Source: Luminiphilus sp.
Lineage (GTDB): Bacteria > Pseudomonadota > Gammaproteobacteria > Pseudomonadales > Halieaceae
Assembly: GCA_029253085.1 (NCBI GenBank)
Contig: JAQXAF010000063.1
Coordinates: 1-32,022, forward strand
Direction: 5' to 3'
DNA: 32,022 nucleotides
The notes beneath the pieces were generated by a model. The model did no database searches and was not told the DNA's origin. It saw only the letters and a program-made list of their open reading frames with translations. Shown in pieces: positions 14,379 to 16,304 of the stretch; within the stretch, counting starts at the first letter, position 1; each line of letters begins with the position of its first letter. The translations under genes and the position numbers were made by a program.

Positions 14379-15254
14379 TCAGATGACGAGGGTGGTTTTG
14401 AGCTTCTTCATCGCATTAACTTCCAGCTGACGAATCCTCTCAGCCGACACACCGTATTCAGCGGCCAGCTCATGCAATGTGGCTTTTTGTTCAGCTAGCC
14501 AGCGTTGGGTCACAATATTACGGCTACGCTCATCTAAATCGCTGAGAGCCGAGCGCAATCGATTCTGGCCGTCCCGAGCTGAGTCTTCGGCCTCAATGCA
14601 TCGAGCTGGGTCAGTCGATGTATCGTCTAAGTAAGCTTGCGGTGACTGCCACGCGTCTTCGTCATCGGCGTCGGTGGGTAAGTCAAAAGCGATATCGCGG
14701 CTTGATAGACGCCCTTCCATGCGCTGAACTTCAGCTTCATCGACACCCAAGTCTGCAGCGATCGCCCGAGTCTCCTCCGCGTTTAGCCAACCCAATGATT
14801 TTTTTGCACTGCGTAAGTTAAAGAACAATTTACGCTGCGCTTTGGTCGTCGCCACTTTAACAATGCGCCAGTTACGCAAAATAAATTCATGCATTTCTGC
14901 CTTAATCCAGTGCACGGCAAAGGAGACGAGGCGCACGCCTTTGTTGGGATCAAAACGTTTTACCGCTTTCATGAGGCCCACATTACCCTCTTGAATGAGG
15001 TCACCCTCGGCGAGCCCATAGCCCGAGTAGCTTCTTGCAATATGGACAACAAAACGCAAGTGAGCGAGTACTAACTCTCTCGCAGAGTCAACACAGTCAT
15101 CATAATATAACTTTTCAGCCAGGGCTTGTTCACGGTCAACGGACAAAATGGGTATTCCGCTCACGGCCTGAACATAGGCGGGCAAATTAGCCCCGGGGGT
15201 CATAGACATAATCGCCCCGTGACCCATTGCTACTGTTTTTCCTGATTCGGACAT
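14379..15254 (-). CDS. rpoH: RNA polymerase sigma-32 (heat-shock sigma factor)
   Basis: RpoH directs RNA polymerase to heat-shock promoters (groESL, dnaK, clpB, lon and others). The 291-residue product has region 2 (LVLAHLRFVVHIARSYSGYG, GDLIQEGNVGLMKAVKRFDP, SFAVHWIKAEMHEFILRNWR), the RpoH-specific box QRKLFFNLR (about residues 138-146) that separates it from RpoD and RpoS, and region 4 with the helix-turn-helix LHELAAEYGVSAERIRQLEVNAM. Start ATG 15254 has GGAGGAGG eight bases upstream. It follows ftsYEX as in E. coli and Pseudomonas, but a perfect CIRCE operator sits in the 93-base gap before it, so control by HrcA is likely. Confidence 0.97.
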   Translation of the reverse strand: MSESGKTVAMGHGAIMSMTPGANLPAYVQAVSGIPILSVDREQALAEKLYYDDCVDSARELVLAHLRFVVHIARSYSGYGLAEGDLIQEGNVGLMKAVKRFDPNKGVRLVSFAVHWIKAEMHEFILRNWRIVKVATTKAQRKLFFNLRSAKKSLGWLNAEETRAIAADLGVDEAEVQRMEGRLSSRDIAFDLPTDADDEDAWQSPQAYLDDTSTDPARCIEAEDSARDGQNRLRSALSDLDERSRNIVTQRWLAEQKATLHELAAEYGVSAERIRQLEVNAMKKLKTTLVI

Positions 15255-15282
15255 CTTGTTATCCTCCTCCCTTCGATGCCGT

Positions 15283-15288
15283 ATTTTA
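15283..15288 (-). promoter_or_regulatory. rpoH: possible -10 box of an rpoH promoter, overlapping CIRCE
   Basis: On the minus strand TAAAAT (5 of 6 matches to TATAAT) overlaps the arm of CIRCE nearest rpoH. With 16-17 base spacing the -35 would fall within the other arm and is poor. If used, HrcA on CIRCE would cover the promoter. A second candidate is TATTAG just upstream, and CCCCCTATT beside it recalls a sigma-32 -10, but neither has a good -35. The promoter is therefore a suggestion only. Confidence 0.35.
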
Positions 15289-15312
15289 GCACTCTACGTC
15301 AGAGAGTGCTAA
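15286..15312 (-). promoter_or_regulatory. CIRCE operator (HrcA-binding site) upstream of rpoH
   Basis: The inverted repeat TTAGCACTC-N9-GAGTGCTAA is perfect in both 9-base arms and in the 9-base spacer, identical to the CIRCE consensus. CIRCE is bound by the repressor HrcA, usually before groESL, dnaK or hrcA-grpE. The near end lies 31 bases from the rpoH ATG, just upstream of its ribosome site, and it does not overlap the end of ftsX (15348). A chance match to 18 specified bases with the exact spacer in this position is very unlikely. hrcA itself is not in the window. Confidence 0.92.
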
Positions 15313-15347
15313 TAGGGGGAAGTTCAGTTACTGCACCGCATCGAAGA

Positions 15348-16304
15348 CTATCTGGGCTCCAACTCTCTGAGCTGGGTCGTTGCTGCGTGCCAGGCACTTA
15401 ATAACCCTAAAGCCCCGCCGAGAAACATCATATTCAAAACACCCATGATCCCAAGACCCGTAAAACGCCGATCACTGCTATAAAGCTGCAGCAGCTGGTT
15501 AACCGGCTCAGATAGATAAATGAAAAAGATTCCCACCATAATGGCGCCTAGTAAGCCGCCACCAAAACCTGACCACAACCCGGTGTATAAAAAAGGACGG
15601 CGCGCATAAGCGTCATTCGCCCCAATCAATTTAATCACCACGATCTCATCGCGGCGGGCCTCAATTGCGAGGCGAATAGTGTTGGCCAAAATAAGAACTG
15701 CGCCCATCATCATGAGCAAGCCAATACCCATCACAAGCCTTCTGCCTGCCTGCAATACCCCAGCCAACCGCGCCTGCCAAAGGGTATCAAAAACCACCTG
15801 ATCAACACCCCGTACAGCCTTTAACCCTTGGGCTAGGTCTGACAGGCCCTCCGACTCCACACTTGCCAAGGGATTTACTAGCAACGTGTGGGGCAATGGG
15901 TTGTCCGGAATAGAATCCAGTAATCCCACCAGCCCCGTATCCGCCGCAAATCTTGCCAACGCTTGGTCTTGCGGAATCAGAGTCACATCGCGCACATCAA
16001 CCCGGCTCTCAATCCGCTTTAGAATTTCTTCAGCGGCGTTGAGCGAGGTATCCGCCTCGAGCAAGACTGAAAAGCGTGCCGGCGAGCGCATATCATGGGT
16101 CACCGCCTCAATGTTTTGTAAAATCACCAGCAGTGAGGCTGGTAAAGCTAAAGCGATGCCCACCACCAACCAGGTGAGGCCTGTAGCCACCGGCAGCCGG
16201 AGGGCCCTCAGCAAACTATTAGACGCCGCCTGCCGATGGTGATGGATCCACGACACCACGCTAGCCCTAGGAGCAATGCCAAGCCCAGCCGCGGGCTTAT
16301 TCAT
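15348..16304 (-). CDS. ftsX: cell division protein FtsX
   Basis: FtsX is the membrane subunit of the FtsEX ABC-type complex, which controls septal peptidoglycan hydrolases and joins the divisome. The 318-residue product has an N-terminal cytoplasmic tail, a first membrane helix (about residues 38-62), a periplasmic domain (about 65-180) and three further helices (about 188-210, 235-262, 285-308) near GIGLLMMMGAVLILANTIRLAIEARRDEIVVIKLIGA, cited here by its key segments IEARRDEI and KLIGA. Its start overlaps the ftsE stop by four bases. rpoH follows on the same strand. Confidence 0.94.
   Translation of the reverse strand: MNKPAAGLGIAPRASVVSWIHHHRQAASNSLLRALRLPVATGLTWLVVGIALALPASLLVILQNIEAVTHDMRSPARFSVLLEADTSLNAAEEILKRIESRVDVRDVTLIPQDQALARFAADTGLVGLLDSIPDNPLPHTLLVNPLASVESEGLSDLAQGLKAVRGVDQVVFDTLWQARLAGVLQAGRRLVMGIGLLMMMGAVLILANTIRLAIEARRDEIVVIKLIGANDAYARRPFLYTGLWSGFGGGLLGAIMVGIFFIYLSEPVNQLLQLYSSDRRFTGLGIMGVLNMMFLGGALGLLSAWHAATTQLRELEPR

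Follow-up and report, generated by a model that had tools for sequence, protein, structure and literature searches.

The HrcA repressor with its CIRCE operator and the heat-shock sigma factor sigma-32, encoded by rpoH, are usually taught as alternative heat-shock designs. HrcA/CIRCE regulation is said to occur in Bradyrhizobium as well, in work attributed to Minder and colleagues in 2000. In the classical HrcA/CIRCE systems of Bacillus, Chlamydia and Helicobacter, the operator is found at groESL and dnaK, where it lies over or near the core promoter, and HrcA is an established GroE-dependent repressor, its activity being helped by GroE (PMC6032397, in the sections available to us).

A CIRCE at rpoH itself has already been predicted in print. 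For Geobacter sulfurreducens, which has hrcA, a perfect TTAGCACTC-N9-GAGTGCTAA element was predicted upstream of rpoH, at position -51 from the translation start, by Rodionov et al. in 2004 (PMC545781). That work deals with the delta-proteobacteria and, in its accessible sections, names G. sulfurreducens only among rpoH genes and does not mention an overlap with a sigma-E promoter. A second reference point is the rpoH promoter P3 of Escherichia coli. This promoter depends on sigma-E and is the one through which sigma-E was discovered, with GGAACTT as the sigma-E -35 element (PMC8103513, likewise in its accessible sections).

Here, we compare these systems with the rpoH locus of a Luminiphilus genome. 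The stretch of DNA that was analysed, referred to below as the window, covers 32,022 nucleotides at its full length.

A perfect operator between ftsX and rpoH

The rpoH gene of the window (14379-15254, minus strand) encodes a protein of 291 amino acids that is assigned to sigma-32 by its family profile (TIGR02392, 389.7 bits against a cut-off of 323.1). Its upstream neighbour on the same strand is ftsX (15348-16304); FtsX, FtsE and FtsY all score above their family cut-offs. The gap between ftsX and rpoH is 93 bases long and contains the 27-base sequence TTAGCACTCTACGTCAGAGAGTGCTAA at 15286-15312 on the minus strand. This is a 9-9-9 inverted repeat that matches the CIRCE consensus with 0 mismatches, and its form is identical to the one predicted for G. 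sulfurreducens. It is a predicted HrcA site. A sequence-only reading of this DNA had placed a perfect CIRCE 31 bases before the sigma-32 gene, between ftsX and rpoH, and had proposed that a candidate -10 element, TAAAAT, overlaps one operator arm. All of this proves to be exact: bases 15255-15285 separate the operator from rpoH, the end of ftsX lies at 15348 on the other side, and TAAAAT, at 15288-15283, does overlap the arm. A likely ribosome site, GGGAGGAGG, can be read at 15263-15271 on the minus strand. The repeat gives no terminator-like or Rfam match.

With up to three mismatches allowed, the window contains this one CIRCE element and 100 dinucleotide shuffles of it contain none. The same scan over the whole assembly (2.29 Mb in 152 contigs, 78.9% complete) finds the rpoH site as the sole place. 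A control pattern written backwards also finds one place in this assembly at three mismatches or fewer, so that about one three-mismatch match per genome is to be expected by chance, while a perfect match is not.

The genome also encodes the repressor on which the sequence-only reading depended. A full-length hrcA is present (350 aa; TIGR00331, 314.5 bits against a cut-off of 197.2), located upstream of grpE, dnaK and dnaJ. The Pfam model of the winged-helix DNA-binding domain (HrcA_DNA-bdg) reaches 20.2 bits on this protein, with a cut-off of 21, and the whole-protein model passes.

Conservation of the operator tracks hrcA

Among 146 relatives searched, RpoH is found in 140, HrcA in 103 and CIRCE with two mismatches or fewer in 107. 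When the regions upstream of rpoH are scored at three mismatches or fewer, CIRCE is present in 96/96 genomes with hrcA and in 6/41 without it (n = 137; Fisher p ~9e-27, not corrected for relatedness). The 137 genomes are the rpoH-bearing relatives without G077, where rpoH sits at the contig start, G112, where it is partial, and G087 (68 bases). Each genome is scored by its best rpoH copy, which hides a second copy lacking CIRCE in G093; in G038 both copies carry the operator. None of 2780 shuffled rpoH upstream regions contains CIRCE at this threshold. The same pattern is seen in the other families of the order alone (17/17 with hrcA against 2/37 without), and within the genus of the window all 52 genomes with a readable rpoH upstream region have the operator with 0 mismatches. 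Four of the six relatives that have CIRCE but no detected hrcA belong to this genus and are incomplete (G021, G032, G044 and G048; 58-88% complete), and their hrcA may simply be missing from the assemblies.

Across the class, HrcA is found in 277 of 370 sampled genomes. In a sample with one genome per family, CIRCE precedes rpoH in 52/53 families with hrcA and in 3/17 without (p 5e-11), where lack of hrcA means absence from the HrcA match table. The 70 upstream regions of this sample, made up of the 30 best-scoring ones and 40 taken at a fixed step down the list, come from 130 rpoH-bearing genomes among 140 examined. The sole sampled family with hrcA but without CIRCE at rpoH is represented by G178 (best match with 6 mismatches). 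The three families with CIRCE and no detected hrcA are those of G225, G209 and G262, the last having a perfect operator in a 97% complete genome.

CIRCE at rpoH is therefore the rule and not an oddity among the sampled hrcA-bearing members of the class. The wiring put forward in the sequence-only reading, with HrcA acting on rpoH, gains support from the presence of hrcA and from this conservation, as far as sequence can speak to it, but it is not unusual, being near-universal in these genomes.

The same arrangement can be named in many groups. At least 120 loci from named genomes have CIRCE followed by an rpoH-like start; they were selected for CIRCE and thus provide names and not a frequency. 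Of the 120 loci listed, 114 align to the RpoH of the window over more than 200 amino acids. They include Haliea, Halioglobus, Parahaliea, Sediminihaliea, Pseudoalteromonas, Rheinheimera and Alishewanella, as well as Methylomonas, Thioalkalivibrio, Dyella, Rhodanobacter, Aromatoleum, Polynucleobacter and Curvibacter, and the closest RpoH sequences among them are those of Haliea, Sediminihaliea and Halioglobus (75-77% identity). Going by the loci listed, the window is most probably from the Halieaceae.

A few individual genomes deserve a separate remark. G178 (locus L391) has a small genome of 1.5 Mb that is 94% complete, in which rpoE was looked for and not found. Three loci, L387 (G262), L349 (G225) and L165 (G106), have an rpoH operator with 0-1 mismatch in genomes that are 96-99% complete and in which no hrcA was found; recent loss of hrcA, a diverged HrcA or assembly gaps are possible explanations. 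One CIRCE-rpoH locus (L279) comes from a record titled as a Klebsiella pneumoniae metagenome-assembled genome and is possibly mislabelled.

Two predicted promoters overlap the operator

Sigma-E promoters follow the consensus (G)GAACTT, a spacer of 15-17 nt and a TCNNA-type -10. The window contains TGAACTT-N16-TCTGA in this arrangement on the minus strand: the sigma-E-type -35, TGAACTT, is located at 15320-15326, and the -10, TCTGA, at 15299-15303, 16 nt after GAACTT and inside the CIRCE spacer. A promoter scan in addition finds a sigma-70-like promoter, TTAGCA-N18-TAAAAT with an upstream TG, that agrees with the consensus at 9 of 12 positions and has an 18-nt spacer. Its -35, TTAGCA (15307-15312, minus strand), is formed by the left CIRCE arm and its extended -10, TGCTAAAAT (15283-15291, minus strand), overlaps the right one. 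The candidate -10 of the sequence-only reading, TAAAAT, overlaps the arm as proposed but accounts for one half of the promoter region; the sigma-E-type promoter, of the kind of E. coli rpoH P3, spans the other half of the operator. The genome has its own rpoE (290.4 bits against a cut-off of 236.15) and an rseA-type anti-sigma gene (RseA_N, 39.8 bits against 24).

The same GAACTT-N16-TCTGA is found upstream of rpoH in E. coli MG1655, behind ftsX and with the gene order of the window; we take this sequence to be P3. The E. coli ftsX-rpoH gap differs in having no CIRCE, the best match having 8 mismatches in 18 positions, and in the distance from the start of GAACTT to the rpoH start codon, which is about 120 nt compared with about 70 in the window. 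Seven of 14 control genomes have an HrcA match, and E. coli is not among them.

When upstream regions are aligned on CIRCE, a shared GGAACTT appears some 15 bases ahead of the operator, and a shared TCTNA runs across the left arm and the spacer. GAAC[CT] is in place at 112/158 rpoH CIRCE sites and at 0/16 groESL CIRCE sites, the latter including one locus, L021, in which the longest open frame is something other than groES. By group, it is present at 28/53 sites of the genus, 28/31 of other genera of the family, 17/19 of the order and 39/55 of the class sample, and also in 82 of the 120 named loci listed. Outside the genus this amounts to 84/105 sites, compared with 1.2 sites on average and never more than 5 across 500 shuffles. 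A TC[TC]NA -10 occupies the expected place at 99/158 rpoH sites and 3/16 groESL sites. The spacing between the -35 and the -10-like element is 15-17 nt in 99/107 pairs, though the -35 slides against CIRCE; for example, CIRCE offsets of -15/+7 and -13/+9 both give 16 nt. On the other side of the operator, the triplet that follows CIRCE ends in AT at 126/158 rpoH sites and 0/16 groESL sites. Taking both features together, 87 of the 158 sites have GAAC[CT] and AT, 39 have AT only, 25 have GAAC[CT] only and 7 have neither.

These numbers bear on the possibility that HrcA acts on rpoH only through the sigma-70-like TTAGCA-N18-TAAAAT promoter, with GAACTT being incidental or serving another function. 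The frequency of AT after the operator, the sites with AT but without GAAC[CT] and the detection of a sigma-70-like promoter by the scan all speak for it. We nevertheless regard it as unlikely, given that GAAC[CT] is kept at a fixed distance far more often than in the shuffles and at none of the 16 groESL sites, and that the E. coli promoter P3, which is sigma-E dependent (PMC8103513, in the sections available), shares GAACTT-N16-TCTGA.

The promoter positions also matter for a reading in which the inverted repeat works as RNA, either as a hairpin that affects the stability or translation of the rpoH mRNA or as an ftsX terminator. A stem of 9 bp with a loop of 9 nt is possible, and one-sided changes in the arms keep a G-U pair in 34/62 variant pairs, yet a two-sided compensating change occurs in only 1/62. 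The presence of CIRCE moreover tracks hrcA, and an mRNA started at either of the overlapping promoters would contain little or none of the repeat. An RNA function is thus very unlikely.

Within the genus of the window, 25/53 sites have no GAAC[CT] even though rpoE is found in 22 of these 25 genomes, so that even here some sites do without the sigma-E part. The sigma-E input can be lost with CIRCE still in place, which suggests that the operator is not kept merely as a part of that promoter. Genus sites without GGAACTT (L062, L052, L055 and others) often have GGTAATTTTTTGGGT or GGTATTTTTCAGGGT directly before CIRCE, perhaps reflecting a switch to another promoter type. In the class sample the CIRCE arms vary mostly on one side: the left arm is often TTGGCACTC, and the right arm is kept as GAGTGCTAA in most cases, as if it doubled as a -10 region.

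Targets downstream of sigma-32

No groEL was found in the 78.9% complete assembly and the groESL part of the circuit therefore rests on relatives. Of 30 CIRCE loci listed among these, 14 are at rpoH and 16 at groESL, with groES read in 15 of the latter. Relatives with CIRCE mostly have one or two sites, and only part of the second sites was read. The closest relative found, G016, has CIRCE at groESL, as do others. A match to CTTGAA/CCCCAT with at most one mismatch is present in 14/16 groESL loci, 13 of them downstream of CIRCE (shuffle minima of 1-3 mismatches). The sigma-32-type promoter after the groESL operator has 1 mismatch in G016 and 0 in G031 and G006.

In the genome of the window itself, a perfect CTTGAA-N15-CCCCAT lies upstream of grpE and a sigma-32-type site with 1 mismatch upstream of dnaK, the best of 30 shuffles having 3 mismatches in each case. 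At hrcA and dnaJ no sigma-32-type site better than chance was found. CIRCE is absent from the start of hrcA, with a best match of 9 mismatches in 170 nt. In relatives, 24/30 hrcA loci give 7-9 mismatches and the other 6, in which the start motif was not found, are unscored; in G016 a 5-kb region around hrcA contains no CIRCE with three mismatches or fewer. This is a difference from G. sulfurreducens, whose hrcA-grpE-dnaK-dnaJ genes also carry CIRCE according to the available sections of PMC545781. Compared with the classical HrcA/CIRCE systems, the target here is the gene of the heat-shock sigma factor, and the hrcA-dnaK operon has sigma-32-type promoters and no CIRCE.

The single CIRCE in an incomplete assembly, its absence from hrcA and the survival of the site in some genomes without hrcA would fit a leftover operator, with rpoH of this organism no longer under HrcA. 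Such a relic would hardly be free of mismatches in all readable genomes of the genus, and CIRCE is gone in most lineages without hrcA (35/41 among the relatives and 14/17 in the class sample). As the hrcA of this genome is intact and the closest relative found has CIRCE at groESL, we consider this explanation extremely improbable.

Proposed mechanism

We think it highly probable, judging from the sequence, that HrcA controls rpoH through the CIRCE element as its operator, which lies over a sigma-E-type and a sigma-70-like promoter, and that GroEL gates this control. The sequence itself shows the operator, the promoter-like elements and how they overlap, the genes for HrcA, RpoE and an RseA-type protein, the sigma-32-type sites at grpE and dnaK, and the conservation; HrcA binding, its dependence on GroEL, the use of the promoters and the direction and strength of the effect are what we infer here. 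Bound to its operator, HrcA would cover the core of the two overlapping promoters, the sigma-E-type one and the sigma-70-like one with its extended -10. With GroEL plentiful, HrcA would be folded and active, and both rpoH and the groESL housekeeping promoter would be held down. Once unfolded proteins occupy GroEL, HrcA would become inactive and rpoH would be transcribed, strongly so if sigma-E is also free. Sigma-32 would then drive groESL, from the second promoter just after CIRCE, together with grpE and dnaK, until GroEL is restored and the circuit is shut again.

In this class, HrcA/CIRCE and sigma-32 thus appear to be wired in series and not to be alternatives. On one promoter of about 45 bp, HrcA as the sensor of GroEL and sigma-E as that of the envelope appear to meet with sigma-32 as the cytoplasmic response. 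With such wiring, GroEL is expected to feed back on rpoH at the level of transcription, a feedback missing from E. coli.

In the accessible parts of the HrcA, CIRCE and rpoH literature, PMC545781 alone describes CIRCE at rpoH, and we found no description of an overlap between CIRCE and a sigma-E promoter there. As far as that literature goes, what appears to be new is that nearly all hrcA-bearing members sampled from the class have the arrangement and that sigma-E and HrcA elements are fused in one promoter. It is fairly likely that rpoH CIRCE sites have been described earlier for some beta- and gammaproteobacterial species.

A possible origin of the E. coli-type promoter

In the ancestor of the Gammaproteobacteria, among which the betaproteobacteria are counted here, rpoH may have had a fused promoter with a sigma-E -10 inside the HrcA operator, and the E. 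coli-type P3 may be a remnant after loss of hrcA; to us the arguments for and against this appear evenly balanced. If it is true, the rise in sigma-32 under envelope stress may be limited by how far a shortage of GroEL frees HrcA, and the textbook organism shows a derived, unguarded form of the gate. Among rpoH upstream regions without CIRCE, 37/51 have no P3-like promoter by the pattern used and 14/51 retain one (shuffle mean 0.6, maximum 5 in 200). These remnants would fit a course in which hrcA was lost and the operator then decayed around a promoter that was kept. In 9 of the 14 upstream regions that retain P3, the left arm is nearer to the consensus than the right arm, most clearly in G135, G144 and G211.
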